DNA of 37,469 nt from Candidatus Mcinerneyibacteriota bacterium (GTDB lineage Bacteria > Macinerneyibacteriota > Macinerneyibacteria > Macinerneyibacteriales > DSCS01), in the NCBI GenBank assembly GCA_016937175.1, contig JAFGWL010000033.1:1-37469 (forward strand). The letters are read 5' to 3'. The notes under the pieces were generated by a model. The model made no database searches. It saw only the letters and a list, made by a program, of their open reading frames with translations, and was not told the origin of the DNA. Shown here piece by piece: positions 1 to 18,269 of this stretch (the stretch's first letter is position 1; every line of letters starts with the position of its first letter). The position numbers and the translations under genes are program-made.

Positions 1-1845
1 CGGATAGGAGATACCCAGGCGAGGCATGACATAGGTCTTGCCTTCTGAGGCGATCTTACCCTCTTCCATGTAGGTCCCCTTGAGGGGATTGCCGGAAGAG
101 ACTTCTTCAAGATGGTCTTTGATGGCCAGGCCCGGATTCTCATAATAATCCACATTGGGATTATAATGTTCCAAACGGGCGCCGACATTGATGATCATAT
201 CTTCCACTTCGATCTTATCCTGGATGTAAGCGTTGAAGTTCCAGGGCTGGACTTCATACATATCCGCTGACACCATCTCATACCGAAGGGAGTTGTAGAC
301 TTCATACTCGATGTCGTCCCTGTTATACATGGCACCGATCTTGAACTGGTTGAAGCGGTCGGCCTGCCAGGTGTAGGCAAAGTTGACCTTGACGGCTTCG
401 TCCTGATACCTGTAGTAGTAAGGAGCGAAACCTGTGTACATCAGCCAGGAATAATCGTTGATGTTCAGGTATCCCAGGTTGACATTGGAGGAATAGACTG
501 AATCGTTATCCCATCCGATGAAATCCGTGTAGTGCATGCCGTTGTTGTCTGTAGTCTGGGCATCATACTGAGAAGAGACGCTCAGTTCATAGAACATGCT
601 GGAATTCAGAGTATGGGTCAAACTCACTGTGTAAAAATCATGGTATGTTACTGAATCGAAATGATCCAGATACCTGTAAGAGGAATGTCCGCCGTACCCT
701 GCTGTATAGGGTGAATAGTTATCAAATCCATGATAGACCTGCCTGTTCATGACAGCGCTGATTTTCATGGTCTGAATGGGGCGGAAGGAAATATTTCCGT
801 AATATTTCCAAGTCCTGTTGTACTCTTCAGGCCTCCATCCATGGAAGAAAGGCTCATAGCCGCTCTCGATGAGCCATTCGGCTGTGGCGTTATCTGCATG
901 GAGGGGATCATTGTAGATGTCAATGAGTTCCTGAAGGTCAACATAATTAGTCCAGAACTTGGCTTCGGGGTGATAGAGGTAATACCCGTTGTCATCATCA
1001 TAGTTGTAAGAGAACGCAAAAGAAGCGTCTTTCAGGAAGGGCACCGGGATGGGCCCGGAGATATAAGCATCGATGATGTCATGGCCGATGTCATCGCCGA
1101 ACTCGGTGATGTAACGGCTTGTCTTATATCCCACTTTTCCGTGGAACTCTTTCTGTCCGCTCTTTGTTACAACCTTGACGATACCGGACATGGCTCCACC
1201 GTACTCGGCGTTGAAACCGCCGGTAACGACTTTCATCTCTTCGATGGCGTCTGAAGAGAGGTTGAAAGCCGAAGTCCCGAAGAGGTTCGAGTTAACAGAG
1301 ATCCCGTCGATAATATAGGCAACTTCATTATCGCGGCCTCCACGAACGTGAAGCTCTCCCCCGCCGCCTGTGACGACACCGGCCTGCTGCTCAAGGACAC
1401 CGGTAACGGTGGGATTGACCAGCTTGGCGATCTGTGTGTTGTCAAAGGTCTTGGATGAAGAGGTGTTGTCCTTCTGGACGATAGGCCTTTTGGCCTGAAC
1501 GATGATCTCTTCACGTCCGGCGACTTTTGCCTCCATGGCGAAGTCTACCGCTGTAGTCGTATCCGCGGATACGATAACATTCTCCTTGGTGTAATCGGCA
1601 TAACCGACGATCATACACTTTACCTTATGGACTCCCGGAGGAACCTGCAGGATAAAGTAGTTTCCGTCAGCCTGCGTAAAAGCACCAAGTGATGTTCCTT
1701 CAATCATAACTGTTGCTCCGGCCAGCGGCTCGCCGGTGGCCTCATCCACAACCCTACCTCTGATTTTTCCGGTAGTACCTGCGAATACAGTAACAGTTAA
1801 GAGCAACATAATAATCATTAGCGCTCTAAGTTTTTTAAAAACCAT
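1..1845 (-). CDS. TonB-dependent receptor with N-terminal carboxypeptidase-regulatory-like domain (TBDR1; 3' end off left edge)
   Basis: Not in the ORF track because it runs off the edge. Reverse-complement read from ATG at 1845 (MVFKKLRALMIIMLLLTVTVFAGTTGKIRGRVVDEATGEPLAGATVMIEGTSLG...) is in frame with the residues at coordinate 1 (GKTYVMPRLGISYP). Signal peptide, plug motifs (HVRGGRDNEVAYIIDG, GGFNAEYGGAMSGIVKVVTKSG), SD AAAGGAG. Paralogous to 6443-9160. Confidence 0.93.
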   Translation of the reverse strand, partial: MVFKKLRALMIIMLLLTVTVFAGTTGKIRGRVVDEATGEPLAGATVMIEGTSLGAFTQADGNYFILQVPPGVHKVKCMIVGYADYTKENVIVSADTTTAVDFAMEAKVAGREEIIVQAKRPIVQKDNTSSSKTFDNTQIAKLVNPTVTGVLEQQAGVVTGGGGELHVRGGRDNEVAYIIDGISVNSNLFGTSAFNLSSDAIEEMKVVTGGFNAEYGGAMSGIVKVVTKSGQKEFHGKVGYKTSRYITEFGDDIGHDIIDAYISGPIPVPFLKDASFAFSYNYDDDNGYYLYHPEAKFWTNYVDLQELIDIYNDPLHADNATAEWLIESGYEPFFHGWRPEEYNRTWKYYGNISFRPIQTMKISAVMNRQVYHGFDNYSPYTAGYGGHSSYRYLDHFDSVTYHDFYTVSLTHTLNSSMFYELSVSSQYDAQTTDNNGMHYTDFIGWDNDSVYSSNVNLGYLNINDYSWLMYTGFAPYYYRYQDEAVKVNFAYTWQADRFNQFKIGAMYNRDDIEYEVYNSLRYEMVSADMYEVQPWNFNAYIQDKIEVEDMIINVGARLEHYNPNVDYYENPGLAIKDHLEEVSSGNPLKGTYMEEGKIASEGKTYVMPRLGISYP

Positions 1846-1969
1846 ACCGCAAACTCCTTTCCTTTTCATAGAAAAAACAACCAACCCAAATTTTTCCATA
1901 AGCTGTTGAACCCCATCACCTCCTTTGGCGAATACACTTTTTTTTCCTCTTTTACACAGTGTTTTATAT

Positions 1970-1998
1970 AGATTAGGTTAATGAATTTCCAGTGTCAA
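1970..1998 (-). promoter_or_regulatory. sigma70-like promoter for TBDR1: TTGACA-17-TAATCT
   Basis: Minus-strand TTGACA (1993-1998), 17-nt spacer, TAATCT (1970-1975); resembles the promoter upstream of the paralogous receptor. Confidence 0.6.
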
Positions 1999-2040
1999 GA
2001 TAATTTTTCGCTTTACGTTGAATTAAATTAGGATAAGAGG

Positions 2041-2067
2041 CGGGTGCGGAGAAGTTCTCCGCACCCG
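2041..2067. terminator. 27-nt perfect inverted repeat (13-bp arms), likely terminator or stabilising hairpin downstream of the PorV-like gene
   Basis: CGGGTGCGGAGAA-G-TTCTCCGCACCCG, 13 nt after the stop at 2080. No strong U-tract on either strand. Confidence 0.6.
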
Positions 2068-2079
2068 TTTGGATAGAAC

Positions 2080-3123
2080 TTAGAAACGGAGTTTCAGCGT
2101 GAAGAGATGGGTCTCTTCCAGCTTGTCATACCCGTTGTAAGCATAATCGACACCGATTCCCAGGCCGGCTGTCATATACTGAAGCCCGCCGCCGAAGGAA
2201 TAGGTGGCATCGATGGAGTCGGCCACTGTGGCCATCCTGTAACCGCCACGGGCGGCTACATGGAACTCTTCGGAGACGTTATAACCGAATTCTCCGCCGA
2301 GGTTCAGCTGTTCGCTGTTATCCACGGGGTTGTAGAAGTCCACAGCGATAGCTGTGGTCATCTCATCGGTCACATAGGGTGTATACATGAAGCCGACACG
2401 AAGCGCCATGGGCAGTTCGTGGTCTTCTGTATACTGGCCGAAGGTGTACTCGTAATCTTCGGCATCACCTGAGCTGGCGTCTTCGATATAGCTGAGGACT
2501 TTATCCAGCTGTCCGCCTTCGAATTTCGGTTTTGTTCCGAAGTTGGCAATACTCAGAGCTGCTGTGAGGCCTTTGATGGGAGTGTGATATTTCACACCGG
2601 CATCCATGGCCACGGCATTGGCAGTCATGTCCCAGATCTTCATGGATACCACTTTCCCGGTGATACCGAAGTCAACGGTCTTGAGCAGCCTTCTTGCGTA
2701 AGTCAGCCCGATAGCTGTGTCAGAAGCGCTGAATGTGGCTCCTGTGCCGTCGGGTTCTGTGATGGTGGTCACTTCCATTTCGGGATAACCGAAATAGGTA
2801 AAGCTTAACGCGAGTTGCGCCATGTCAGACATGGGGAATGAGACGGCCAGATATTCAAACTTGACATCGGCCAGCCATTCACTGTGTGTGAACATGGCTT
2901 CATAATCCTGGACATTGACGAGTCCGGCCGGATTATAATAGAGCGCTGAGACACCCTGGGAAGCAGCGGCACCGGCATCACCCATCCCGACAAAACGGGC
3001 ATCAGGCGCGACTTTCAAAAAGACGCCTGTAGCCTGTCCGGTCTGAGTCATGTCAGCGGCACTTACCGAGGTAGCCAGAGCTGCTATAGCGATAATCGTA
3101 ATGATTACTATTTTCTTTAACAT
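2080..3123 (-). CDS. PorV/PorQ-like outer membrane beta-barrel protein
   Basis: Signal peptide, 'FLKVAPDARFVGMGDAGAAASQGVSALYYNPAGL' motif typical of PorV/UPF0164 proteins, C-terminal Phe, SD GGGGAGG. Downstream of a T9SS cargo gene. Confidence 0.85.
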   Translation of the reverse strand: MLKKIVIITIIAIAALATSVSAADMTQTGQATGVFLKVAPDARFVGMGDAGAAASQGVSALYYNPAGLVNVQDYEAMFTHSEWLADVKFEYLAVSFPMSDMAQLALSFTYFGYPEMEVTTITEPDGTGATFSASDTAIGLTYARRLLKTVDFGITGKVVSMKIWDMTANAVAMDAGVKYHTPIKGLTAALSIANFGTKPKFEGGQLDKVLSYIEDASSGDAEDYEYTFGQYTEDHELPMALRVGFMYTPYVTDEMTTAIAVDFYNPVDNSEQLNLGGEFGYNVSEEFHVAARGGYRMATVADSIDATYSFGGGLQYMTAGLGIGVDYAYNGYDKLEETHLFTLKLRF

Positions 3124-3136
3124 AGACTAACCTCCC

Positions 3137-6100
3137 CTACCTGATGACGGCAAACGTGCCCTCAGTCTTGGTCTCATCATCCACGTAGATCACGTAAATG
3201 TAGATACCGCTCGCCAGATCCTGGTTGTCCTTGTTACGCACATCCCACTCTTCCGTACCGGTTCCGTTGTCATGATGCAGGATCCTGACAATATCGCCGG
3301 CCACAGTGTAGATATAGATGTCACATTCGCCGGGCAGATGTGTGAACTCTGCTTTACGGCTGGTGACATTCTGATCCCAGCTGTTGATGGGGTAGATGGG
3401 GTTGGGGACAACTTTGACTTCAGACAAATCGATCTCGGATGCCTGTGTCATGGCGTAGGTATCCACTTCCCAATACTCGCCGCCGCTGATGATGTCGCCA
3501 TGCTGCTGCATGGTGATCTGTGTACCATCGACGATGGGAGCTTTATAGACGGTATAGTAGATCCGGTCGCCGTCGTCAAAGGCAGCTCCGGCTCCGTCGT
3601 CATAGGTTCCGTAGAGATACATCCCGTTGGTCATCTCTTCGGTCAGGATGTAATCGGGATCTGTCGTGGCAACACCATCTACATAGTTGAATGTCCTTCC
3701 GTAGAGCGTGAAGGCGTTGTCACCGTCCAGGGCTACAGGCAGGTAATCTCCGTAGAGATCCCAGGATGCGCCGTTCCATTTTTCCACGGTGGCGTAATGA
3801 GCCACACCGGCAGCGGTGAAGTTGATCTCGAATTCATCGCCGTATCCGATGGAAGGTACATCCACGTAGTAGGCATCCGTTCCCCCACTGTTCTGTACCG
3901 TGTAGACAGTTCCCACGGCCGTGGTGACAGTGGCCGGGGTGAGAACCCCTGTAGTCCTGTCTTTCAGGAAGAAGAAAGGCAGATCGAACAAGGCATCCCC
4001 GCGTACGACAAGGTCCTCTGTTGCAGGGCCCGCCGTCGTGAGGTCTGTATCAGGATGGATAGAGACACTTCCGCTTGTTCCGGCGTTCCTGGTGACAGCC
4101 CACTCATAGACATCGCTGTCATGGAAGGTCACTCGGAACTGGCCCTCATCAGCGAAACGGGCCGCGTAGAAGTAGGGCTCGATTCCCATGGTGGTGGCAG
4201 CTTCATAACCGTCTGCTGCGCCGAGTTCTGTGACGATTCCGCCTTCAAGGTAGACATCATCGGCATAGGCTTCCGACAGAACCACATAATAACCGTCCAT
4301 GAAGAGACAGTTGTCGATACCGGGCTCAAAGCGCGGTGACCAGTTGAGTCCGAAGAGATCCCAGTGGGTCACCAGCCAGCCGCCGGCATAGCGGTCGCCG
4401 TTGGTGATCCCTTCCAGATAGATATTCTCTCCGGCATAAGCGGTCTCATCCACATCCAGAACGGTCAACTCAAAGACCCCGGGAGTGGAAGTGGCAGCAA
4501 AATCCATGACCAGGTCATGGCCGGTCCCCATACGGGCGGTCCAACCATAATCCCCGACATAGGTCAGGGCTGCTGCGTCATACTCGCCTGCATTAGCCGA
4601 TGTAGTGGCGATGGAATCGTATCCGTAGTCATAAGTTGCTGTAATCGTATACTGGATCCCGTCGATGATCTCTGTCTGGTAGATCTTGTCGTAGGTCGCG
4701 CCGATATTGGGGGCGACAAAGTTCTCCGCCACATACTCGGATGTATCCAGGTCGATGACTGAATAGATGAGTTCATTGGCATGTGACCCGGGCTCTACCA
4801 TGATCCTGTAGGTATGGCCGGTCACAAAATTGGGCTCCATGATGGTGGCTGTGATGGTGCCGGGGTTTCCGCCCACGACCACAGCGCCGCCGTTAGCCGG
4901 TTCAGGGGCCACGGGAGGATTGTATCCCACGGCATTGGTCCGTCCCTGGGCAAAGAGGGTGTCCCCTAAGGATTCCAGAGATTCCGGCGGATTAGGCTGG
5001 GCATCATAAGCCACGACTTTGTAGTAGTAAGGAATACCGTTGATGACATCGGTATCCAGATAGGAGTGCTGCAGGCTGCTCAGATCGAAATCAGCGATCT
5101 CGGTCCAGGGTCCCGCAGGGGACATGGCCCTGTAAACACGGTATCCGGCGAAGTCATACTCGATATAGTCGGGGTCATACACCGCAGAACCCGGATCGCT
5201 GGCCACAGCATAGTAGGGGTCAGGAGTCGTTTCCGCAGCGCTTCCCCAGCTGATGAAGACTTTCCTGTCCAGAGACTGGGCCACTGCAGCGGGTTTCACC
5301 GGTGCAGAGGGGAGAAGCCATTCATTGTCAAAGATAAACTGGGCAGCGATGGAGTTCCCGACAAGCGTCCTGTAAGAGCGCCCGTCAGTCCCGGTGACTT
5401 CGAGAGTCGTGTCATCGCCCAGTTCATAACCGGGGATAATAGCCAAAACGATATTGGCGGTCTCGCCGGGAGCCAGGTCGAAGGGCCCTGTGGTCATCAT
5501 GAACCTCTTGTCGGCGGGGCCGCTGTCCACATCAAAGGGATTGTAGACATCACCGGCCATGTTCCAACCGGACATGAGGTTGTAACGCTGTACATCGTTG
5601 ACCGGCGCTACATCGATGGAGAAGATCTTGAACGCTGTCAGGCCGATGGGGCTTCCTCCTCCGTCATCAGGAGAATCAAGGAAGTCGTAGCCGATATATC
5701 CGGCATGGCCGAAGCTTTCTGTTCCATCGTTGTCGTAGCAGTATCCGATGTTATAGGTGGCGTCATATCCCACCATATCATCGACAGCATTACCTACATC
5801 GGGGTCCTGTACGATACCGAGGTAAGAATCGGTAAGGGTACCGGTGCCTTCATTGGTCACTTCGTAGATTACGAAGATGATGTCGTTGTTGGAGGGATAG
5901 TTCCACTCATAGGTCTTCTGCACCACTTCGATGTTCAGGGGCGTATGGACATTGCCCGCTGACTGAAGCGGAGGGTTGGGGTTAGCATCATGATAGACAG
6001 CATAACTGTCCAGCACCGACTTGATCTCAGCCAAAGGCCAGTCGCCGTCGCTGCTGAGATAGACCTTGTACTGGGAGTCCATGTAACTGGTCCCGATCTC

Positions 6101-6430
6101 ACCGGGAGTGAATTCAGACGAGCCATCGGAGGAGATATATCCGCTAGTGACATATTTTTCCGTTCCGATCATGGCGCCGAACCACATACCGGCTCCGTAG
6201 ATATACTGGGCATCACCGTTCTGATAGGCCCAGTAGCCGCCGGCGGAGGTGATCCCGTCATCCACGCCGTGCTGGCCGAAGTTGTTTACGGTCAACCAAA
6301 ATCCGTTGGCCTTCAACCATTTCAGGTCAAGGCTTTTGTAACGGACTTTCTGTACATCCGGATCCGTTGCCCCGAAGGAAACGGAAAACGCGAATGCGAT
6401 TATCAACAGAATTAAAACTAATTTCCTCAT
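3137..6430 (-). CDS. Large secreted protein with fibronectin type III-like region and C-terminal T9SS type A sorting domain
   Basis: 1097 aa; signal peptide MRKLVLILLIIAFAFSVSFG; FNIII-like 'FAGYRVYRAMSPAGPWTEI...YYYKVVAYD'; C-term 'VKVVPNPIYPINSWDQ...GDIVRILHHDNGTGTEEWDVRNKDNQDLASGIYIYVIY'. SD AAAGGAGGT. Confidence 0.9.
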   Translation of the reverse strand: MRKLVLILLIIAFAFSVSFGATDPDVQKVRYKSLDLKWLKANGFWLTVNNFGQHGVDDGITSAGGYWAYQNGDAQYIYGAGMWFGAMIGTEKYVTSGYISSDGSSEFTPGEIGTSYMDSQYKVYLSSDGDWPLAEIKSVLDSYAVYHDANPNPPLQSAGNVHTPLNIEVVQKTYEWNYPSNNDIIFVIYEVTNEGTGTLTDSYLGIVQDPDVGNAVDDMVGYDATYNIGYCYDNDGTESFGHAGYIGYDFLDSPDDGGGSPIGLTAFKIFSIDVAPVNDVQRYNLMSGWNMAGDVYNPFDVDSGPADKRFMMTTGPFDLAPGETANIVLAIIPGYELGDDTTLEVTGTDGRSYRTLVGNSIAAQFIFDNEWLLPSAPVKPAAVAQSLDRKVFISWGSAAETTPDPYYAVASDPGSAVYDPDYIEYDFAGYRVYRAMSPAGPWTEIADFDLSSLQHSYLDTDVINGIPYYYKVVAYDAQPNPPESLESLGDTLFAQGRTNAVGYNPPVAPEPANGGAVVVGGNPGTITATIMEPNFVTGHTYRIMVEPGSHANELIYSVIDLDTSEYVAENFVAPNIGATYDKIYQTEIIDGIQYTITATYDYGYDSIATTSANAGEYDAAALTYVGDYGWTARMGTGHDLVMDFAATSTPGVFELTVLDVDETAYAGENIYLEGITNGDRYAGGWLVTHWDLFGLNWSPRFEPGIDNCLFMDGYYVVLSEAYADDVYLEGGIVTELGAADGYEAATTMGIEPYFYAARFADEGQFRVTFHDSDVYEWAVTRNAGTSGSVSIHPDTDLTTAGPATEDLVVRGDALFDLPFFFLKDRTTGVLTPATVTTAVGTVYTVQNSGGTDAYYVDVPSIGYGDEFEINFTAAGVAHYATVEKWNGASWDLYGDYLPVALDGDNAFTLYGRTFNYVDGVATTDPDYILTEEMTNGMYLYGTYDDGAGAAFDDGDRIYYTVYKAPIVDGTQITMQQHGDIISGGEYWEVDTYAMTQASEIDLSEVKVVPNPIYPINSWDQNVTSRKAEFTHLPGECDIYIYTVAGDIVRILHHDNGTGTEEWDVRNKDNQDLASGIYIYVIYVDDETKTEGTFAVIR

Positions 6431-6442
6431 CCGCTACCTCCT

Positions 6443-9160
6443 TTAAAAGGAAATTCCCAATCCGAATCTGACGTAACGGGGAGCACCGTAGAATTCCGGG
6501 TTGGCCCCGAAATACTCTTTGTACTTGTTCTCAAAGGTGTAGTCGTCACCGGGATAGGGATCCGTAGCAGCCGCAGCGTTATCGTACAATCCGTTATCAT
6601 CAGGTTCACCTGTGGTGGCATAAACAGACGTTATGTTCACCCAGTTGAAGAGATTGGAGATCGTACAATAGGCCGATACATTGAGCATACGTCCCATCAC
6701 ATCAAACTCAAAGTCTTTGTTAATCCTCATATCCAGGGATTTTGTCCCGGGCATCCTCATGGAGTTCATGGGCCCGGTATTCCTGTTGGTCACATCTTTG
6801 GGAGTGTAAGGAGCACCGGACTCATAACTGAAGAGGAAGTTCACGCCGGCATTCTGCAGCGGTTTCATTCCAAACAGTTCAGGCCCGTCGCCCTTCTGTG
6901 TCCTGATATCCATATTGATCTTCACCGCATGACGGCGGTCGAAGGCCAGGGGATATTTCTTGGCCGGAGGAGTCCTCAACCCACCGGAGACGGTTACGAC
7001 ACCGTAGTAGCCGTCACGCTCCGAAGAGGAGTTACCTGTAGCCCAGGAGAGAGAGTAGTTGATATCTCCGCTGATGTAGTTGGAGTAGAGCTTGGAGAGA
7101 CCGATCTCAAGCCCGCGCACCTGGGCATAACCGCCGTTGGTGTAGAGGGTGTAGGACTTGATGGGATCGGGGATCTCTTCGGTATAGAGGAGGTCGGAGA
7201 TGCTCTTGTAGTAGCCGACCACCGTCATACGCCAATCTTCACCAAGGCGCTGCTCCAAACCCAGCTCGTATGCGATGGTCTTCTGCATATCGAGGTTGGG
7301 GTTCCCGAGAAGCGGATACCCGGGTTTATACCACTCGTCGTTTTCCACATTGGAAAAGAGGTAGTTGAACGTCGGCATCTGGTAAAAATAGCCGTAATGG
7401 AAGTGAAGGACAGACGTATCGGAGATAGGCAGCGCCAACCCGACCCTGGGGCTGATGGCGTATTTAACCTCGGCATCAGCTGTAGGAGAGTCTGTTCCCT
7501 CGATAAAGGCTGTAGGATCGGTGAAATACTTGATGTTGGGATCGAAGTAGTCCATACGAACGCCCACATTGAGGATCATGTTTTCATACTCCAGCTTATC
7601 CTGGACAAACAAGTTGGCCAGCATGGGTTTTACGTTGAAGTCCGTGGTGTAATTGGCACTTGTGGGATAAGAGCAGCTGAAATATTCCAGGTCATGCTTC
7701 TGCACTTCGAATCCGACTTTGATCTGGTTAAAGCGGTTCACCTGGGATGTCAGGTCACCCCTGACATTGATGTAGGAGGCTTCCTGCTGAGAAAAAGCGA
7801 TATAGTGCCCGTCGATGTAGAAGAGGTTGTAGGGGTCAAAGACACGTTCGTCTGTCTCAGTATAAGGATCGATGAAATCGCCGATCTCATCTTCACCAGA
7901 CTGAGGAAGCCAGTCATCCGTGAAATCGAAATACCCGACCATGATACTGTAGAAGGTCCGGGCATTCAGGGTATGGGTCAGCCTTTCGGTGATCAGGAGG
8001 CTTGTGGTCTCGCCTTCCATATACTTATCCAGGTCATACTTATAGCGATGGCTGTAGTATTCGCCCTGGTTGAAAGAACCGAGAATATCCGTCTCACTTT
8101 TCAGCGTCGGCATGAGCTTTCCGCTGAGCTTGAACTGATAGTCATACCCGTTGGCCGCCGTATGAGGCGTCCAGTAGGTGGGGGTCAGGTCTTCGGGAAG
8201 GTTGTCCACCATATCATCATAATCGGGGATACGATGTCCCACGGCATCCCGTTCGGTGTAGCCGAAGGTTCCCATGAAGGCAAAGGGTGTATAGGGAATA
8301 GGCCCTGAGACAAACCCTTTGATGCTGTTAAAGCCATAGTTCAGGTCCAAGAGCCCGGGATCCACTTTGTCGGGCTTGGAGAACATGGCATCGGTCTCAA
8401 CAGTGACCCCGGCGTGGAAATCCTTCCCGCCCTCTTTGGTCACGATGTTGATGATACCGGACATGGCATTTCCGTACTCGGCGTTGAACCCGCCGGTGAG
8501 GATCTGCATCTCCTGAACCGCATCTGTGGCCACATCCAGTGCAGACTGGCCGGTCATGAGGTTCTGTACAGAGAAACCGTTGACATAGTACCCGACTTCG
8601 TTTCCGCGTCCCCCGCGGATATGAAGGCCGCCGACATTTCCGCGTTCTTCATTAGCCGAGTTTTCGACGTTGTTAGTGGCGTTGGACAAGAGGGCTGCGC
8701 CCTTCTGAACCGTTAACACATCGTCAACTGAATCCACGGCCATATTCTTGATCTTGGCCGCATCCACTTTTTCAACTGTGGAAGTATTATCCTTACGGAT
8801 GATCTCCCTTTTCGCCGTAACGGTGACTTCTTCCGTTCCGGCGATCTTTTCCTGTAACTCGATGGTTACATTGGTGGTACTGTCCGCAGAGATGACCACA
8901 TCAGTCACAATCCCTGTGGAGTACCCGACCATAACCGCCTGGAGAGAGTAGACTCCCGGCGGAACCTGGAGGATAAAGAAGGACCCGTCTGCCGAAGCAG
9001 CCGCGCCCAGCTGTGTGCCTTCTACCAGCACAGTGGCTCCAGGCAGGCCTTCTCCCGTCGAGGCATCAACGACTTTGCCCCGGATCTTTCCTGTTGTTCC
9101 CGCGAATGCGACTGCGGAAACCAATAAAATCACAAAGAGAAAAGACAAGAACCTTTTCAT
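6443..9160 (-). CDS. TonB-dependent receptor with carboxypeptidase-regulatory-like domain (TBDR2)
   Basis: ORF track extends to 9241, but ATG at 9160 (MKRFLSFLFVILLVSAVAFAGTTGKIRGKVVDASTGEGLPGATVLVEG) has an SD and a signal peptide. Plug motifs; C-term ...RYVRFGLGISF. Confidence 0.93.
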   Translation of the reverse strand: MKRFLSFLFVILLVSAVAFAGTTGKIRGKVVDASTGEGLPGATVLVEGTQLGAAASADGSFFILQVPPGVYSLQAVMVGYSTGIVTDVVISADSTTNVTIELQEKIAGTEEVTVTAKREIIRKDNTSTVEKVDAAKIKNMAVDSVDDVLTVQKGAALLSNATNNVENSANEERGNVGGLHIRGGRGNEVGYYVNGFSVQNLMTGQSALDVATDAVQEMQILTGGFNAEYGNAMSGIINIVTKEGGKDFHAGVTVETDAMFSKPDKVDPGLLDLNYGFNSIKGFVSGPIPYTPFAFMGTFGYTERDAVGHRIPDYDDMVDNLPEDLTPTYWTPHTAANGYDYQFKLSGKLMPTLKSETDILGSFNQGEYYSHRYKYDLDKYMEGETTSLLITERLTHTLNARTFYSIMVGYFDFTDDWLPQSGEDEIGDFIDPYTETDERVFDPYNLFYIDGHYIAFSQQEASYINVRGDLTSQVNRFNQIKVGFEVQKHDLEYFSCSYPTSANYTTDFNVKPMLANLFVQDKLEYENMILNVGVRMDYFDPNIKYFTDPTAFIEGTDSPTADAEVKYAISPRVGLALPISDTSVLHFHYGYFYQMPTFNYLFSNVENDEWYKPGYPLLGNPNLDMQKTIAYELGLEQRLGEDWRMTVVGYYKSISDLLYTEEIPDPIKSYTLYTNGGYAQVRGLEIGLSKLYSNYISGDINYSLSWATGNSSSERDGYYGVVTVSGGLRTPPAKKYPLAFDRRHAVKINMDIRTQKGDGPELFGMKPLQNAGVNFLFSYESGAPYTPKDVTNRNTGPMNSMRMPGTKSLDMRINKDFEFDVMGRMLNVSAYCTISNLFNWVNITSVYATTGEPDDNGLYDNAAAATDPYPGDDYTFENKYKEYFGANPEFYGAPRYVRFGLGISF

Positions 9161-9198
9161 AAAAGAAACTCCTTTCTTTCTATCCACAACATAAACAT
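9157..9198 (-). other. Putative leader mini-ORF (MFMLWIERKEFLL*) overlapping the TBDR2 start by ATGA
   Basis: In the leader behind an AAAGGAGGT SD-like element; its TGA overlaps the ATG at 9160. Very short, no independent coding support. Confidence 0.2.
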
Positions 9199-9239
9199 CC
9201 AACTCCACACACCTCCTTTCGATTTCTCTGATTATTATC

Positions 9240-9268
9240 AATCTACCTGATTAAATTCACGGAGTCAA
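9240..9268 (-). promoter_or_regulatory. sigma70-like promoter for the TBDR2 operon: TTGACT-17-TAGATT
   Basis: TTGACT at 9263-9268 and TAGATT at 9240-9245 (minus strand), 17-nt spacer. Confidence 0.55.
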
Positions 9269-9349
9269 TATATTTTTTTCCTAAAAATGAATTTTATAAG
9301 GAGAAAATGGCATTAAAATAAATTTCTTTTGGTAACCGAAATATCTTCC

Positions 9350-11191
9350 TCAGCGAAGGAGGACAAAGGGGGCTATGTCTCCATCCAGCTTCACATAGTA
9401 GAGGCCGGAAGGAAGGTCCGAAAGATCCAGGCTCTCACAATCACGGGCCCTCCCAAGCAGGCGTCCACGGGCATCATACAGAAAGACTTCTTCCACTAAG
9501 CTTCCGAAATGGAGGATATCGCTCCCCTTGAGGGGGTTGGGATAGACAAGGCGCCGGCTGTCAGATTCCATGAAAGGCTCTGTGACTGTGATATTTCCCC
9601 TGGCATCCAGGGCTCCCACCCGGCAGACACTCCAGGTCTGGGGGAAAGTCCGGGCAGAACCAAAGGGTTCCTCTGCCCCTCCCGTAAAAACGGCACGGCG
9701 TCGCGTCACTACAGTGACACCCCGGTATTCATTGGCACTTCCGGTGACCTCCACGCGCACACTGCGGACAGACTTGGGAAAAACGAGAGACGCTTCTCCG
9801 GTTCCGGAGAATTGATGACGCTCCTCATACGAGACACCATCACCGGAAACAGAGATCAGGCTTATGTCGCCGGGGGCTATGGCATAGGAGAGGGCCAGCT
9901 CCAGATATCCCGGAGAGGTAATGTCACTGTTTTCAAAGACAACCCCGTCCCCGCCGTTCAAAGTAACACTCATCCCCGAGACTTCCGCCAGGCCGGAATT
10001 GTTTTCCAGCAGGACCAGTTCCAGAGGCGGGAGGAGAAGACTCTCTCCCGCATAGAGACAGAAGGTGACGGGCCCGCTGATGTCATACCAGAGTCCCGGA
10101 TCCACCGAAGAGTAGGAGCGGTGGTTCTCTATCCGGGGAGAGATGAGCATTTCCGGCGGGATGTCCTCTTTTCCGTAGTAAGAGGCCAGCCTTTCCAGCC
10201 AGTGGCAGGCTGCTTCGAAATCGAGCTCGCGGTAACCTGTGAGGCTTGCCTTGAATCCGGCATAATCGGGCGGAAAAAAGAGCGAGACCCCTCCGAATGA
10301 GCTCTCGGAAGTCTCCCGCCGCAGGACAGCGCTCTCCCACCCCGGAAGAAACGAAGCATCGACATCCAAAGCCTGATAATCTATTGTATTGACAGGTGTC
10401 ACTCCTGAAAGAATCCCGCGGTCCCAGCTCTGCGGAGACGAGCCCCCCACAGAAGACGTGACTGCCTGACGCCACAGGGGCCCGGAGACAGCCGCCAGTG
10501 ACCAGGCTGTCCCTCTGTTCACAAAAAGGTCGAAGAGAGCTGTCATGAGCTCTTCAGGGGTCTGCGGAGACCTGGTAAGGAGAGAGGCATAGTCGAAGGC
10601 ATCTGAAGGCAGATTATGGGCAGATGCCGCAAGGATCTCCCCGTAGGGTGCCAAGGCGAAAAAGTTCTCCACCGAGGCCATCCGGCAGGCATCCAGAAGT
10701 ATAAGCGAATAACGGTGTCCGTCAAAGACTGCAGCAGTCGTCTCAGCGCTGAAAAAGATCTCCAGCCCGCTCAAAGCGTCCCAGGCGATGGCATCGGGTT
10801 CTGACATAGTGGAGGCAAACTCGGGATACCAGTTGTTTCCATGCCCCCAGAGGGCTAAGAGAGAAATCCCGCCGGTCCTGCGGGTCTCAGTCCAGTCGAG
10901 AAAATCAGCCAGGGTCTTCTCATCTCCCATATCGGCCTGGGAAAGGAGTGTATCATCCGATTCTCCTCCGCCCCGGAGGCGGCGAACAGTCGTTCCGCCG
11001 TAGGAGGCCTGAAAAAGGAGCCGGTTGGAGGTCTCGGCCGGAAGAGCCCGGGCCCAGTCGTCCAGGGCCTGAGCCTGATCCCCGAGAGTATTGTTTCCTG
11101 AAATATAGATCAGAAGGTCAAAGCAGAAGATAAGCGGAGTCAGGAAAAGAAACCAGACCACCAGGAGGCCGGCTGCCCGTCTATTCTTCAT
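9350..11191 (-). CDS. Clostripain-family (C11) cysteine peptidase with C-terminal T9SS type A sorting domain
   Basis: Catalytic-region motifs 'LLALWGHGNNW' and 'LILLDACRMASVE'; C-term 'LVYPNPLKGSDILHFGSLVEEVFLYDARGRLLG...LDLSDLPSGLYYVKL'. Confidence 0.85.
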   Translation of the reverse strand: MKNRRAAGLLVVWFLFLTPLIFCFDLLIYISGNNTLGDQAQALDDWARALPAETSNRLLFQASYGGTTVRRLRGGGESDDTLLSQADMGDEKTLADFLDWTETRRTGGISLLALWGHGNNWYPEFASTMSEPDAIAWDALSGLEIFFSAETTAAVFDGHRYSLILLDACRMASVENFFALAPYGEILAASAHNLPSDAFDYASLLTRSPQTPEELMTALFDLFVNRGTAWSLAAVSGPLWRQAVTSSVGGSSPQSWDRGILSGVTPVNTIDYQALDVDASFLPGWESAVLRRETSESSFGGVSLFFPPDYAGFKASLTGYRELDFEAACHWLERLASYYGKEDIPPEMLISPRIENHRSYSSVDPGLWYDISGPVTFCLYAGESLLLPPLELVLLENNSGLAEVSGMSVTLNGGDGVVFENSDITSPGYLELALSYAIAPGDISLISVSGDGVSYEERHQFSGTGEASLVFPKSVRSVRVEVTGSANEYRGVTVVTRRRAVFTGGAEEPFGSARTFPQTWSVCRVGALDARGNITVTEPFMESDSRRLVYPNPLKGSDILHFGSLVEEVFLYDARGRLLGRARDCESLDLSDLPSGLYYVKLDGDIAPFVLLR

Positions 11192-12341
11192 GGACCTCCA
11201 CAGGATACTGCTTCATGAGAAGCCCGAAGAGTTCCCTCATGAGATATTCTTCAACATGTGATTTCCGAAGCTCCACAACGGTACGACTCCGGACTGTCCA
11301 CTCACGTCCCTGGTAGCGGGCCGTCCCTCCCTCTTCGGGGAAACGGGCCCTTTCGCCTGGAAAAAGGGTCACAAGCCGGCTCTCTTTACCGTCTGTCAGA
11401 TAGGCCTCTTCCACCAGCCCCTCCAGTTCTTTTCTGGCCCGGGGAGTATGGGTATTGATATAGTCACGCTCATAGACTCCGATGGCGGCGAGATCCCTTG
11501 AGATCTTTCGCAGATAATCCAGTTCCTTTTTAAAGACATCCTCAAGGAAATGCTCCTCCACGAAACGTTTCATCAGAGGAATACGGGCATCCGAGTCAGG
11601 AAGAGTCCCGATCCCGCGGGTTACCTCCTCCACGGTGAAGATGCGGCCCTCATATCCTCCCACCTCCTCCTTCCCATCCCCCTGAAACGCAACAGAGGGG
11701 TCAAAGAAGAAACGTTTCTGAAACTTTAGGTCCTCAAAACCCATGGCCATGGCCAGAGCCGACCTGATCTTAAAGCGCTTTTCATCATCCAATGGAGAGT
11801 GCGCCGTAAGGACCTCATGGACAGTCACATCCAGATAACCGTATTTGGTCTCTATCCCTTTCACCGTCTCCCCGGGAGAGGCCTGGGAGATAAAGAGATC
11901 CGCCGGTTCGGGCAGGTCTCCGGGAGTGAAGAGGATATCCTCCTTGACTGTCCCCTGTTCCGGCGTCAGGGTATATAAAGCGTAGGAGATCCGGAAACTT
12001 TTGTCAAAATAGGGGTCATCCTGGCTCAGAACATCCATAAAGGAGCGGGCTTTTTCCCTGAGGAGATTTTGCAGGACACTCTTTTTAAGGTCCCTGTAGG
12101 CCTTCTCAACCTTGCTCTCCTCCAGGCGCACTTCCCGGGCGGCACGCGCGGCTAAGGCGAACTCGGCAAACTTCTGCAGGGCCATGGAGTCATCATAATC
12201 AAAAAGACGGGTAAAGAGACGGACTTCGCTTTTAGCATAAGTCTCATCTCCTACTGTCAGATAGGGTTTCTCTCCGCATCCTCCCAGGATGATCACCGTC
12301 ATCACTGCCAGCATCACAGATCTTTTCAGGACAAATCTCAT
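11181..12341 (-). CDS. Putative lipoprotein, possibly a divergent SurA/PpiC-type periplasmic chaperone
   Basis: Lipobox-like 'VIILGGCGEK', start-proximal 'YLTVGDETYAKSEV' resembling the start of SurA/PpiC proteins; SD GGGGAGG. Confidence 0.5.
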   Translation of the reverse strand: MRFVLKRSVMLAVMTVIILGGCGEKPYLTVGDETYAKSEVRLFTRLFDYDDSMALQKFAEFALAARAAREVRLEESKVEKAYRDLKKSVLQNLLREKARSFMDVLSQDDPYFDKSFRISYALYTLTPEQGTVKEDILFTPGDLPEPADLFISQASPGETVKGIETKYGYLDVTVHEVLTAHSPLDDEKRFKIRSALAMAMGFEDLKFQKRFFFDPSVAFQGDGKEEVGGYEGRIFTVEEVTRGIGTLPDSDARIPLMKRFVEEHFLEDVFKKELDYLRKISRDLAAIGVYERDYINTHTPRARKELEGLVEEAYLTDGKESRLVTLFPGERARFPEEGGTARYQGREWTVRSRTVVELRKSHVEEYLMRELFGLLMKQYPVEVHEE

Positions 12342-12366
12342 ATCTCCTCCCCTTCACTCAATAATC

Positions 12367-14961
12367 TCACGGAATAAACTCAGCGGCTTTCTCAAGGATC
12401 TCATTCAGGCGGCCGTTCTGTTTCCCTCCGAACCGCGCCATGTCGGGGCGCCCCCCGCCGCCGCCTTCCAGCAAAGCGGCCAATCCCGAGGCTATTTCAC
12501 CGGCCTTGACTTCTCCTTTTAAATCGTCTGTCACCATCACGACCCCGTTGACCTTCTCCCCTTCCGCCCCCGCCAGGACGATGACGCTTTTTCGCGACGC
12601 CCGGTCCTTGACCCGCTGGGCCGTCTCCATGATGACCTTCATATCCCCTTCAGGAAGAAGGGCTGTATAGAGGGAAAGTCCCTTATCACTTTTTCCGGCG
12701 GCTATAATAGCGTCGATATCGGATGAAGCTGATTCCATCTTCAGCTTCTCGATCTCCTTATGAAGCTCCTTTTCCCTTTTGAGCAACTGTTCAATCCTTT
12801 CGGGCAGCTGGCCCTTCTCAGCCTTTACAGCCCTGGAGAGTTCTTCCAGAAGCATCTGATTATCCTGGATATGATGAAGGGCTTCTTCTCCTGTGACCGC
12901 TTCTATACGGCGCACTCCTGCTGAAAGGCTTCCTTCGGAAAGGATGATAAAAGGGCCGATGTCTCCGGACCTTTCCACATGGGTCCCCCCGCAAAGCTCC
13001 ATGGAGACCCCTTCCACAGAGACTACCCGGACCTCGTCGCCGTACTTCTCGCCAAACAGGGCGACCGCCCCCTTCTTACGGGCCTCCTCCTGTCCCATTA
13101 CCGCTGCTGTGACAGGCTTGTTCGCGATGATCGACTTATTGACGATCTCCTCCACAGCGGCCACTTCTTCCCGGCTCATTTTGGAAAAATGGGTAAAATC
13201 GAAACGGAGCCGGTCCGGCCCCACATAGGACCCCGCCTGGTTGACGTGGCTTCCCAGGACCTCTTTAAGGGCTTTGTGGAGAAGGTGTGTGGCTGTATGG
13301 TTCCGGGCAGCGCTCAGGCGGGTCTCCTCATCCACTTTGAGACGGTAAGGCTTCCCCTCTTCCAGGGACTCGCCTCCCTCTCTTATCTTATGGATATGGA
13401 CGCCGCCGGCCTTTTGGGTATCGTAAACGGGCAGCTCTTTATCCCCTGCCAGCAGCCATCCCCGGTCTCCGGCCTGTCCGCCCGATTCTCCGTAGAGGCA
13501 ACTCCTGTCAAAGACAAGGTCCCAGCCCTCGTCGGTCTTTGTCTTAAAAAGCAGGGTCCCCGTCTCTTCCAAGGTATCGTATCCGGTGAAAGAAGTCTCG
13601 GGAAGCCCCTTCTCCACCACATAGAGGTATCGCTTCTCTCCGGACCCTCCAGCCCAGGAGGCACGGCCTCTCTTCTTCTGGTCTTCCATGGCCCTTTGAA
13701 AACCCTCTTCATCCAGACGAAGACCCTGTTCTGAAAGGATATCCGCTGTAAGGTCCACGGGGAAACCATAGGTATCGTAAAGCTTGAAAGCCGTCTGCCC
13801 GGAAAGAACAGACCCGCCCTCATTACGGAGTGTCCGGCACTCCTCTTCCAGAATAGCTATCCCGGCATCCAGGGTATCGAGAAAACGCTCTTCTTCCATC
13901 TTTATCAGGTGCTGGATATGCTGGGCCGCCGGGAGAAGCTCTTTGTAGAAATCTCCGTATCGGGAGACGACGTCTCCTGCCAGCTTGTAGAGGAAGGGCT
14001 TCTTATACCCCAGGATCCTGGACTGCCTCAGTGCCCGCCTCAGGATACGGCGGAGGACATATCCCCGCCCCTCATTGGAGGGGATGACACCGTCGGAGAA
14101 GGCAAAGACAAGGGCCCTGATATGGTCCGCGATGATGTGGAAATGGAGAGCAGTCTTTTCCTCATAGTCCACACCGATATAGTCGGAAGCGGCCCGGATC
14201 AGGGGCTGAAAAAGGTCTGTATGGAAATTATTGGTCTTCCCCTGGAGGATCGAGGCCAGGCGTTCCAGCCCCATCCCCGTATCGATGTTTTTTTTCTGCA
14301 GCGGAGTCAGGCTCCCGTCGGCCTCCTTGTTAAACTGAGTAAAGACCAGGTTCCAGAATTCCACATAGCGGTCACATTCACACCCTGGACGACAGCTCTC
14401 TTTTCCGCAGCCTGTTCCGGGGCCGTAATCATAGTAGAGCTCCGAAGAGGGGCCGCAGGGGCCGGTCTCTCCAGCCGGGCCCCAGAAATTATCCTTATCG
14501 CCTAAAGCCACGATACGTTCAGCCGGAAGATACCTGAGCCAAAGGAGCCGCGCCTCATCATCATCTGTGTGGACTGTCGCCCAGACCCGTTCCGGGTCAA
14601 GCCCGAGCACCTCTACTGTAAACTCCCAGGCATAGGCGATGGCCTCCTCCTTAAAATAGTCTCCGAAAGAAAAATTCCCAAGCATCTCGAAAAAGGAGTG
14701 GTGACGCGCTGTCTTGCCCACATTCTCAAGGTCGCTCTTCTTCCCTCCGGCGCGAAGGCATTTCTGGCAGGAGGCTGCACGGGTGAAGGACAGACGGGCT
14801 GTATCCTTTGCCTGAAAGAATTCTTTGAACTGGACCATACCCGCCGAAGTAAAGAGCAGTGTGGGGTCATCCCGGGGAATAAGAGGGGAAGAGTCGACGA
14901 TCCTGTGCCCCCTCTCTTCAAAGTAATCGATAAATGCTCTTCGAATATCCGCTGCTTTCAT
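12367..14961 (-). CDS. alaS: Alanine--tRNA ligase
   Basis: 864 aa; 'FTSAGMVQFKEFF', 'SFFEMLGNFSFGDYFK', editing-domain 'HTATHLLHKALKEVLG' and 'CGGTHV'. Confidence 0.98.
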   Translation of the reverse strand: MKAADIRRAFIDYFEERGHRIVDSSPLIPRDDPTLLFTSAGMVQFKEFFQAKDTARLSFTRAASCQKCLRAGGKKSDLENVGKTARHHSFFEMLGNFSFGDYFKEEAIAYAWEFTVEVLGLDPERVWATVHTDDDEARLLWLRYLPAERIVALGDKDNFWGPAGETGPCGPSSELYYDYGPGTGCGKESCRPGCECDRYVEFWNLVFTQFNKEADGSLTPLQKKNIDTGMGLERLASILQGKTNNFHTDLFQPLIRAASDYIGVDYEEKTALHFHIIADHIRALVFAFSDGVIPSNEGRGYVLRRILRRALRQSRILGYKKPFLYKLAGDVVSRYGDFYKELLPAAQHIQHLIKMEEERFLDTLDAGIAILEEECRTLRNEGGSVLSGQTAFKLYDTYGFPVDLTADILSEQGLRLDEEGFQRAMEDQKKRGRASWAGGSGEKRYLYVVEKGLPETSFTGYDTLEETGTLLFKTKTDEGWDLVFDRSCLYGESGGQAGDRGWLLAGDKELPVYDTQKAGGVHIHKIREGGESLEEGKPYRLKVDEETRLSAARNHTATHLLHKALKEVLGSHVNQAGSYVGPDRLRFDFTHFSKMSREEVAAVEEIVNKSIIANKPVTAAVMGQEEARKKGAVALFGEKYGDEVRVVSVEGVSMELCGGTHVERSGDIGPFIILSEGSLSAGVRRIEAVTGEEALHHIQDNQMLLEELSRAVKAEKGQLPERIEQLLKREKELHKEIEKLKMESASSDIDAIIAAGKSDKGLSLYTALLPEGDMKVIMETAQRVKDRASRKSVIVLAGAEGEKVNGVVMVTDDLKGEVKAGEIASGLAALLEGGGGGRPDMARFGGKQNGRLNEILEKAAEFIP

Positions 14962-14964
14962 CTC

Positions 14965-15597
14965 TCAGGCCTTCCTTTCTTTCTCCATCCTGTCCAGCAG
15001 GGCGTTGATCTGACCGGCATCAAAGCCCTTCCCCATAAGGTACCGGAAAAGAGCCGCGCGCCACTCCTGTTTTCCCTTCACAGAGCGGTATTTCTTTTCT
15101 GCAGCCCTCTCCAGAGCCTTCTCCTCCCGGTCTGCCAGGGGAAATTCCAAAGCAATGCGGTCAAATAGATCCCCGGGAATCCCTTTTCGGGTCAATTTAA
15201 AGCGTAAAGCCCTCAGGCTCTCTTTCTCATTATAACGGAGATAATCCTTTACGAGTTCCGTATCATCCACAAAACCGTATTCTCTGAGCCGGGAAACCTC
15301 CTGCCGGGCCAGCTCCACAGAATACCCGCGCTCAAGAATATAACGCTCCACCTCTTTTTCCGTCTTTCGGTAACGGCTTACCAGGGCCAAAACCCGGCTG
15401 TGAAGCCTCTCTTCTAATTCAATACGGCGGATCTCTTCGAGAAACTCCGCCGTGACCTCTTTTCCCTTATACAGGTTGAGGAGAGCGATGGTGTTCTCCT
15501 CGACCCCCTCAAAAAATTCCTCGTCTATGAAGAGATTGTAGCGTGTCTTACTCTTCTTCTGCGGTTCCAGAGCCGTAATCTTCATGATCCTTGCCAA
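14965..15597 (-). CDS. recX: Regulatory protein RecX
   Basis: RecX three-helix repeats ([35 protein letters not shown]); immediately follows recA. Start may be 15585 (MKITALEP). Confidence 0.88.
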
Positions 15598-16582
15598 AGA
15601 GCTCTTCGCGGACCTTCCCCTCGATCTCTTCCAGCATCTCAGGAGCGTTCTTCAGGTAATCTTCGACATTATTCTTCCCCTGTCCCAGCCGCATATCGTT
15701 ATAGGAATACCAGGAGCCGCTCTTGTCCATGATACCGAACTCCGAAGCCAGGTCGATGACTTCGCTTATCCGCGAGATCCCCTCTCCGAAAATGATCTGG
15801 ACATGGGCGATCTTGAAGGGAGGCGCCAGTTTATTCTTGACGATCTTCACTTTGACTTCATTCCCGATATCCGAAGTCCCGGTCTTGACCGATCCCGTAC
15901 GCCGTATATCCATCCGGAGAGAGCAGTAAAACTTCAGCGCATTCCCGCCGGTTGTGGTCTCGGGGTTTCCGAACATGATCCCGATCTTCATACGGATCTG
16001 GTTCAGAAAGACAAGGGCTGTCTTGGTCTTGTTGATGACCCCTGTGAGTTTTCTCAGGGCCTGGGACATGAGACGGGCCTGAAGTCCCATATGGGAATCG
16101 CCCATATCTCCCTCGATCTCCGCCCGGGGAGTCAATGCCGCCACAGAGTCTACCACGATGATATCGATGGCTGCACTCCTGACCAAAGTCTCTACAATAT
16201 CCAAGGCCTGTTCGCCGTTGTCCGGCTGAGAGACAAGGAGGTTGTCAATATCCACGCCCAGTTTCCGGGCGTAGACAGGGTCCAGGGCATGTTCCGCATC
16301 GATAAAGGCCGCCACTCCCCCTTTTTTCTGAGCTTCGGCGATGATCTGAAGAGCCAGCGTCGTCTTTCCTGAAGACTCAGGCCCATAGATCTCTGTGACA
16401 CGCCCCCGGGGGATCCCTCCGATTCCCGTGGCATGGTCGATCTTCAAAGAGCCGGTGGAGATAACATCCACATCGAGGTGAAAGTCCCCTCCCAGGCGCA
16501 TGATCGCCCCTTTTCCGTAATCCTTTTCCAATTGTTGTATCGCCTTTTCGAGCATCTTTCCCCTGGCTTCCTGATCTGACAT
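15548..16582 (-). CDS. recA: Recombinase RecA
   Basis: '[20 protein letters not shown]' Walker A, '[19 protein letters not shown]', '[12 protein letters not shown]', '[12 protein letters not shown]'. ATG at 16582 with SD AAGGAGG. Confidence 0.99.
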
Positions 16583-16612
16583 ATGGACCTCCTTTTTGAA
16601 CATCTTTGGGAT

Positions 16613-16640
16613 ATTATAACCATTCGCACAATGAAATCAA
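16613..16640 (-). promoter_or_regulatory. sigma70-like promoter for recA: TTGATT-16-TATAAT
   Basis: TATAAT on minus strand at 16613-16618 and TTGATT at 16635-16640; about 30 nt upstream of the recA ATG. Confidence 0.65.
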
Positions 16641-16709
16641 GCCTCTTCTCCGAAGGCTTCCGGCCGGAAGAAGGGCCCTTCGACGATCTCTGTCAGAGTA
16701 TGAGAGAGA

Positions 16710-16740
16710 GGAGGGGGAGGATCTCCCCCTCCATTTTTTT
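16710..16740 (+). terminator. Rho-independent terminator-like hairpin plus T7, oriented on the + strand
   Basis: GGAGGGGGAG-GAT-CTCCCCCTCC (perfect 10-bp stem), then ATTTTTTT. Confidence 0.6.
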
Positions 16741-18211
16741 AGAAACTGTATTTCAGTGCTATTCCTACCGAGCTCGTATCAGTCCATTCGGCAAAACGTT
16801 TGATGGAATCCACCTGGGCCCCCAGGCCGCCCGCCATGATACCGGCGGCGACATCTTCGGCTGTGGCTCCGCCGAATCCCGCCTCATAAGGTCGCAGGGC
16901 ATCGGCGATATCCTCTGCCACGGCATCTGTGGAGAGTGTATTATCCTTCTTTCCCCTAAGCCCGTAATAGAAGAGGGAAAGGTCCAGCCCCTTCTTGAGG
17001 GGCAGTGTATATTCGGCATGGAAAGCATAGTCCAGGTTTGACACAGCATAGATCACAGGACTGTCTCCACCGAGATCTGTAAAATTCGGCGCCAGCGATG
17101 CAAAGGGGCTGTCAGCCAGGATCCCGGCCAGAAGCCCCTTGGGCAGGCCCTGAAGGCCGTCAAAGGCATCTGTGCTTGCCTTTGTAAAGTCAGCACTGAA
17201 CTGGCCCGGGAGGCCCAGAAATCTGTCGGCGACCAGGCCGTAGGTCCAGAAGGTCCCCTTGATCTCACGGGCCTCATAGGCCTCGCTGGTGGGGATGGCA
17301 TCTCCCTTGACCATCTGGAAACCTACATAGGGCTTATATCCCTTGAAAGTATAGGAAAGCTGGCTGTTATAGATCCTGTGTTTGTATTTCCCCTGATACT
17401 CGTAAATGGTATTGTCTGCCTCTGTCTCGGTAAGTTTGGTCCCGCCGGACTCTCCCGCGACAAACTGGACAGCCCCGTTGAACCCGAATCCGAACTTCTG
17501 AGCTTCCGCCCAGAGGATGGTGTTGAGGGCACTGTCGGCATTCATCCCTGTCCCTATGAGTGATATATCCCCTGCTCCCCGCGCCAGTGCCACACCGAAA
17601 CCTGTCTCAGGAGTGACATGGAAATCCATCTGGATCATAGGGAAGGTGGTCAGGGCAGCAGCTGTGTAGAAGATGAAATCCTCATCTTCGGTATCCCCGA
17701 TGTAAAGATGGGTGTAAGCCGCATTGGCGGTGGCTTTCACCGTGTTGATCCCTACAGAGATCCCGAAAGGGCGCCCGCCCTTCATCTCGAAGGGACGATA
17801 CATGACAAAGAAGTTGTTCACTTCAACGACTTCGTCGGTCCACTCCCGGTCGCTGTTGGCCGGATCGGCCGGGTTATAGTAGTAGGAGACATCAGGGTCG
17901 TTGGCATCCACACGGATCTGAAGGACGCCGAACCAGGGAGAGGCCCCCGGAGTCCCTAATGAAAAGTTCAAAAGCCCGTGGGCTCTGAAATTCTGAGACG
18001 CCCTGTAGTTGGCCCCGGCCCTGTTGAACAAACCCATCTCAGGAGAGTCAAGGGGGGTAGCGAAACCCTCCTGGCTCTTTGCGATGATCACAAAATTCCC
18101 GGAGATCTTCAAATTGTCCAAAAACGATTTCATGCTGTCATCTTGCGCTGTTGCCAGGCCTGAGGCGACAGCCAGGGCCAGACAGAGCAGAAAAAACCTT
18201 TTCAACGTCAT
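16739..18211 (-). CDS. Outer membrane beta-barrel (porin-like) protein
   Basis: Signal peptide MTLKRFFLLCLALAVASGLATAQ, beta-rich sequence, C-term 'SVGIALKYSF'. ATG 18211 with SD AAGGAGG. Confidence 0.75.
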   Translation of the reverse strand: MTLKRFFLLCLALAVASGLATAQDDSMKSFLDNLKISGNFVIIAKSQEGFATPLDSPEMGLFNRAGANYRASQNFRAHGLLNFSLGTPGASPWFGVLQIRVDANDPDVSYYYNPADPANSDREWTDEVVEVNNFFVMYRPFEMKGGRPFGISVGINTVKATANAAYTHLYIGDTEDEDFIFYTAAALTTFPMIQMDFHVTPETGFGVALARGAGDISLIGTGMNADSALNTILWAEAQKFGFGFNGAVQFVAGESGGTKLTETEADNTIYEYQGKYKHRIYNSQLSYTFKGYKPYVGFQMVKGDAIPTSEAYEAREIKGTFWTYGLVADRFLGLPGQFSADFTKASTDAFDGLQGLPKGLLAGILADSPFASLAPNFTDLGGDSPVIYAVSNLDYAFHAEYTLPLKKGLDLSLFYYGLRGKKDNTLSTDAVAEDIADALRPYEAGFGGATAEDVAAGIMAGGLGAQVDSIKRFAEWTDTSSVGIALKYSF

Positions 18212-18241
18212 ATGAACCTCCTTCATAGGCAATAATGATTT

Positions 18242-18269
18242 ATGTTAAGGAGGGGGCGTGACTTGTCAA
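18242..18269 (-). promoter_or_regulatory. Promoter TTGACA-16-TAACAT upstream of the beta-barrel protein gene
   Basis: TTGACA at 18264-18269, TAACAT at 18242-18247 (minus strand). Confidence 0.5.

Follow-up and report, generated by a model that had tools for sequence, protein, structure and literature searches.

Substrates of the type IX secretion system (T9SS) exit SprA bound to a carrier barrel (PMC10994853). PorV retains the C-terminal domain (CTD) of PorU, and PorQ that of PorZ; a protective role towards CTDs has been suggested for cognate PorV-like barrels (PMC10202324). Type B cargos depend on a cognate barrel that is usually encoded directly downstream, while all type A CTDs are said to share one PorV (PMC12618676). 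We describe here a locus in which a TonB-dependent receptor, TBDR2, is followed by a T9SS-tailed cargo protein of 1097 amino acids (aa) and then by an outer-membrane barrel of the PorV/PorQ family, a gene triplet that we call the cassette. The window, 37,469 nucleotides (nt) in length, is the entire contig C47 of a 1.88-Mb, 71-contig metagenome-assembled genome (MAG), G000, from Candidatus Mcinerneyibacteriota. The triplet is a conserved genetic unit whose members are inherited together.

All components of the cassette belong to known superfamilies. As in SusCD and RagAB, a TonB receptor with an N-terminal CarboxypepD_reg-like extension is encoded beside a single surface partner, but that partner is a T9SS-exported protein of about 1100 aa with its own barrel, where SusD is a lipoprotein. 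Like the PorZ-PorQ and PorU-PorV pairs, the cassette couples a secreted CTD protein to a PorV/PorQ-family barrel; unlike them, it lacks propeller and C25 domains, occurs many times per genome, and is nearly always accompanied by a receptor. Type B cargos of Flavobacterium johnsoniae (SprB-SprF, Fjoh_3952-Fjoh_3951; PMC12618676, PMC9143113) show the same succession of a cargo gene and a gene for a FadL-superfamily barrel, proposed as dedicated shuttle and anchor, whereas the cassette has a PorV/PorQ-family barrel, a type-A-like CTD, and a TonB receptor in front; no cassette protein matched type B CTD or PorP/SprF models up to E = 1. With canonical PorV and its type A cargos the cassette shares the barrel family and the general CTD fold, except that each cassette brings its own barrel and its own CTD subtype. 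Cargo-barrel and receptor-partner pairings are thus known separately; a description of the triplet was not found in the open-access papers searched.

The three genes run head to tail, with 12 nt between receptor and cargo (6431-6442) and 13 nt between cargo and barrel (3124-3136), and the frames, coordinates and gaps given in the original prediction, which had been made from the bare sequence, proved exact. Synteny in related genomes had been set beforehand as the test that might refute that prediction. In loci picked by a match to the cargo, the order receptor, cargo, barrel recurs in other groups of bacteria. Because such a choice of loci is biased, the genome collection was then surveyed by receptor alone, using TBDR2 as query, and the best 80 loci were annotated with custom profiles. 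The main count took in those related receptors from named genomes for which 6 kb or more of DNA was available downstream, 52 in all. On the same strand, 51 of these 52 receptors precede a gene of the cargo family, itself followed by a PorV-family gene; both gaps are shorter than 500 bp in 48 of the 52, with medians of 18 and 15 nt. A cargo gene lies within 500 bp of 74 of the 78 receptors that have at least 600 bp downstream. The order is kept in about ten phyla, including Calditrichota, Marinimicrobia, Ignavibacteriota, KSB1, Zixibacteria, WOR-3, Balneolota and Rhodothermota, and one of the assemblies is a complete chromosome, CP030158; a few phylum labels (Planctomycetota, Verrucomicrobiota) are MAG assignments taken as given. 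Other T9SS-tailed genes often flank the cassette. In some loci (L066/L067, L061, L086, L159, L169) two or three cassettes stand in a row, each with a separate receptor and cargo and mostly a separate barrel, and a MAG labelled Planctomycetota (L167) has two cassettes on opposite strands.

Tree distances of receptor, cargo and barrel agree closely over 80 complete triplets (Mantel r 0.72-0.90; receptor-cargo 0.90, receptor-barrel 0.79). Since species history alone could produce such agreement, paralogous cassettes were compared within genomes: over 33 pairs from 10 genomes, r remains 0.78-0.89 (receptor-cargo 0.89, receptor-barrel 0.80), falling to 0.42 for receptor-cargo (p 0.0005) and 0.52 for receptor-barrel (p 0.0085) when partners are shuffled within genomes.

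The barrel of the window scores 178.3 bits to the PorV-family model NF033709 (cut-off 90), a model matched by 30/30 cassette barrels, and falls below the equivalog cut-offs both for PorV (NF033710, 65.8 of 250) and for PorQ (NF033711, 96.7 of 220). At 1e-20, 27/30 cassette barrels match PorQ and 14/30 match PorV. PorVs encoded next to PorU reach 208-244 bits on the PorV model, with cassette barrels far lower and nearer PorQ. The protein described at first as PorV-like therefore holds its place in the family; by score it is not an ortholog of PorV and stands nearer PorQ. On the tree, cassette barrels form one group, with moderate support at its base (83), separate from the PorVs adjacent to PorU and from the other members of the family, and the cassette or non-cassette label changes just twice, against 19.7 times when shuffled. 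The one outsider in the group comes from the edge of a contig and could belong to a truncated cassette. The barrels are thus no generic single-copy family but a branch of their own, separate from the PorU-linked core PorV, which several cassette-bearing genomes retain beside PorU.

The cargo tail likewise forms a subtype. In the window cargo it is below threshold in Pfam and NCBIfam (TIGR04183 18.2 against 23; PF13585 18.2 against 27), yet the family alignment shows it clearly, as had been read from the sequence. Taking a TIGR04183 or PF18962 match above cut-off as the mark of type A, the tail is not type A but a related, separate subtype. Cross-validated profiles distinguish cassette CTDs from other T9SS tails at the same loci with an accuracy of 0.977 and an area under the curve of 0.976, and the Por_Secre_tail model matches 2/34 cassette cargos, compared with 49/51 neighbouring T9SS-tailed proteins. 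The PorZ model is matched by 22/34 cassette cargos; the match in the window cargo lies within the CTD region and is below cut-off (NF052228, 26.1 against 260). A GK-hydrophobic motif near the CTD end, containing a candidate PorV-binding lysine, occurs in just 47/80 cassette cargos and is not conclusive.

Association with T9SS extends to the translocon. Among 116 genomes, SprA is present in 26/27 that encode the N-terminal domain (N-domain) of the cargo and in 13/89 that do not (Fisher p 3e-15). In G000 itself, a 1692-aa SprA-like frame on contig C27 matches three SprA segments, the best at 123 bits (cut-off 200).

Both TBDR2 and a second receptor gene, TBDR1, encode CarboxypepD_reg and Plug domains above cut-off. 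TBDR2 scores 37.5 bits to the Plug model PF07715 (cut-off 23.9) and 40.8 to the barrel model PF25183 (cut-off 30), and misses the cut-off of the SusC/RagA subfamily (TIGR04056, 79.7 against 368.25 bits). In agreement with the original prediction, no SusD match was found among the cassette and flanking proteins, to which the search for SusD was confined.

Among the cassette cargos scanned, no Pfam or NCBIfam model is matched consistently by the N-domain, nor does it match any solved chain by sequence. A full-length model had a predicted local distance difference test score (pLDDT) of 58.8 with an unreliable middle, and a separate model of the N-domain was therefore built from 91 sequences, reaching pLDDT 83.4 and a predicted template modelling score (pTM) of 0.80. 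A fold search with it returned the beta-supersandwich of enzymes of glycoside hydrolase (GH) families GH94 and GH116, and also YidC, at a best E of 4e-7. Because the catalytic barrel of GH94/GH116-type enzymes is absent from the modelled domain, binding is the more likely role than catalysis. The protein had been called fibronectin type III (FnIII)-containing; it has no FnIII match in Pfam, and what stands of that claim is a predicted beta-sandwich with an FnIII-like sequence pattern behind the N-domain. Several of the 51 T9SS-tailed neighbours of cassettes carry GH or carbohydrate-binding module (CBM) domains (CBM9, CBM20, CBM4_9, CBM48), which hints at glycans.

We consider it somewhat better supported than not that the cassette encodes one outer-membrane machine, in which a T9SS-delivered surface partner of the TonB receptor is held by a dedicated PorV/PorQ-like barrel. 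From the observations above we infer its secretion, anchoring, contact, import and substrate as follows. The T9SS, with an SprA-like translocon encoded elsewhere, would export the cargo of about 1100 aa by way of its CTD, as the CTD itself and the co-occurrence with SprA suggest. The CTD would then be collected by the barrel encoded directly after the cargo, not by the general PorV, and would be kept uncleaved as a permanent membrane anchor, comparable to PorQ with PorZ, PorV with PorU, and SprF-like barrels with type B adhesins; we propose this dedicated-anchor step because of the gene pairing, the co-inheritance, the CTD subtype and the separate barrel branch. Anchored beside or over the receptor, the cargo may capture or present a substrate, in the role that SusD has for SusC, and the receptor would import it on TonB energy. 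The fold of the N-domain and the CBM- and GH-bearing neighbours faintly suggest a glycan or glycan-bearing polymer as the most likely substrate. The original prediction had the cassette coupling a receptor, a displayed cargo and its own PorV-type partner; a conserved, co-inherited gene unit with its own barrel branch bears this out at the level of genes, and from these we infer the coupling itself. Neither of the outcomes named beforehand as refuting it, loss of synteny among relatives or unrelated genes behind TBDR1 together with a generic barrel family, came about where this could be examined.

The same gene order would be seen in any functionally linked operon, and the frequent T9SS-tailed neighbours also fit an old operon whose products are merely needed under the same conditions: an ordinary surface enzyme or adhesin as cargo, a shuttle barrel that releases it, and a receptor that imports the product and makes contact with neither of them. 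Such co-regulation leaves unaccounted for the separation of both the CTD subtype and the adjoining barrel branch, the agreement of partner trees within genomes, and the provision of a barrel for each cassette although several of these genomes keep a core PorV beside PorU; we regard it as unlikely, while giving it real weight. The nearly constant link of the receptor to a T9SS pair could instead mean that the receptor serves export or display, with TonB energy releasing the cargo-barrel complex or seating it on the surface. In the T9SS, energy is needed at the step where the complex of substrate and carrier is released, yet this step is thought to be driven by the system's own motor (PMC10994853), and the Plug and N-terminal extension are of the import-receptor type, so that this role appears improbable.

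The barrel might also act as a FadL-type channel, taking a hydrophobic ligand from the cargo beside a separate TonB route. The PorV family is related to FadL, and a profile search with the barrel gives weak matches to TodX and TbuX; the best match by far, however, is PorV of the T9SS translocon (1e-36), and with the PorV-family model found in every cassette barrel scanned we judge a channel to be distinctly improbable. Chance adjacency or an assembly artefact, conceivable for a MAG contig whose edge truncates a gene, is refuted by synteny, the order being the same in dozens of unrelated assemblies including a complete chromosome, and hardly needs to be entertained.

Several findings weigh against a surface partner anchored by its own barrel, the reading we prefer. 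The survey covered the 80 receptors closest to TBDR2, and looser relatives may sit outside cassettes. A PorU-like CTD was rejected by sequence, as hidden Markov models place PorU tails nearer ordinary tails than the cassette tail; the description of cassette CTDs as PorU/PorZ-like comes from the NCBIfam PorZ match alone. The SprA match in G000 is below the curated cut-off, and no PorU comes near its threshold in G000 or in either of the two genomes most closely related to it, which makes CTD processing here uncertain. With a TM of about 0.35-0.39 by query, the fold match of the N-domain is partial; sandwiches of this kind are also found in non-carbohydrate proteins such as YidC, and the CBM- and GH-bearing neighbours may simply mirror the usual T9SS exports.

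A broader proposal, to which we give nearly even weight with a slight leaning to doubt, is that T9SS sorting has a third branch, which uses a CTD subtype and PorV/PorQ-like anchors of its own to build TonB-dependent importers in which a T9SS-exported capture subunit replaces the SusD lipoprotein, and that this is a main design for nutrient uptake in Marinimicrobia, Calditrichota, KSB1, Ignavibacteriota, Zixibacteria and related lineages. If true, one device would unite TonB import with type IX secretion, two outer-membrane systems that have been treated separately until now, the idea of a single PorV for all type A-like cargos would fail beyond the well-studied Bacteroidota, and a large, unannotated family of surface proteins from abundant uncultured marine and sediment bacteria would gain a function. 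The cassettes also supply many natural cargo-barrel pairs for studying how a CTD selects its barrel.

Table 1. Features of the cassette region in the window, and domains of the cargo protein
Feature	Position	Strand	Description
TBDR1	1..1899	-	Paralogous TonB-dependent receptor; truncated by the contig edge after 633 aa, C-terminal part lacking
Perfect 27-nt palindrome	2041..2067		3' of the PorV-family stop codon
PorV/PorQ-family outer-membrane barrel, 347 aa	2080..3123	-	NF033709; cassette branch; proposed as dedicated shuttle and anchor
Cargo, 1097 aa	3137..6430	-	Signal peptide, N-domain, FnIII-like domain, variable middle, T9SS CTD
TBDR2	6443..9160	-	TonB-dependent receptor, first cassette gene; within frame opening at 9241
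Clostripain-family (C11) protease with T9SS type A tail	9350..11191	-	Directly upstream of TBDR2
Block of PorV-family gene, cargo, TBDR2, C11 protease and 386-aa lipoprotein	2033..12405	-	Absent between TBDR1 and alaS in G001
Conserved N-domain	cargo, about aa 36-370		Predicted beta-supersandwich
FnIII-like domain	cargo, about aa 380-480		Predicted beta-sandwich with FnIII-like sequence pattern
Variable middle	cargo, about aa 490-1000		Low model confidence
T9SS C-terminal domain	cargo, about aa 1000-1097		Cassette subtype

TBDR1 and TBDR2 are sister paralogs on the tree (support 100), with about 35% identity and therefore the products of an old duplication. The second receptor had been credited with its own promoter, a part of the claim that found no support: in a scan of 1850-9500, promoter-like matches (7 against 7.2 expected by chance) and terminator-like matches (6 against 6.2) are at chance level. 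The 27-nt perfect hairpin is real, with fully complementary 13-bp arms (2041-2053 and 2055-2067) about a 1-nt centre; it lacks a T-tract, and the scan reported nothing resembling a terminator there.

TBDR1 had also been proposed to start a second cassette, for which there is indirect support from another assembly of the same genus, G001. Its TBDR1 ortholog (78% identity) adjoins alaS and stops 100 bp before contig C7 runs out. Contig C32 has at its edge, in fitting orientation, the tail of a cargo (44% identity) together with a PorV-family gene. The homologous contig C59 of G000 extends as far as a GWxTD gene and partly into the one after it, ending a few kb before the PorV-family gene. The DNA that would join TBDR1 to this putative cassette is unassembled in both genomes, and this is most simply read as a second cassette, headed by TBDR1, that falls into the assembly gap of each; the gap would also explain why no second cargo match occurs in the G000 assembly. 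Both assemblies break within this region, where strain variation or repeats may be involved. The third Plug receptor of G000, on contig C30, has no cassette beside it.

Window positions 2-2032 and 12406-29252 align to adjacent parts of one G001 locus (L076), from which 2033-12405 is absent. The G+C content of this block (0.534, against 0.532 for the rest) gives no support to a recent foreign insertion, and loss of the block in G001 is equally likely because the two receptors are old sister duplicates. Inclusion of the C11 protease in the cassette is doubtful; it could conceivably stand in for the PorU sortase (C25, of the same clan), which was not found in the genome. At another G001 locus (L075, 11098-14233) a PorV-family gene is followed by genes for a PPIC-type peptidyl-prolyl isomerase lipoprotein, a 331-aa protein and a GWxTD protein, a setting similar to that of the 386-aa lipoprotein, itself without Pfam match, in the window block.

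G000 has three PorV-family genes above cut-off, on contigs C47, C33 and C40. The generic model OMP_b-brl_2 was discarded as a PorV probe after giving irrelevant matches. Neighbouring matches to this model form arrays of five on C59 (1110-4516) and four on C30 (65071-67770). In G000 (L020, 8257-9599) and in G002, a genome of the same order (L077, 9870-11203), a protein of 123-130 aa, which consists of a signal peptide, a CTD-like domain and little else, is encoded directly before a PorV-family gene.

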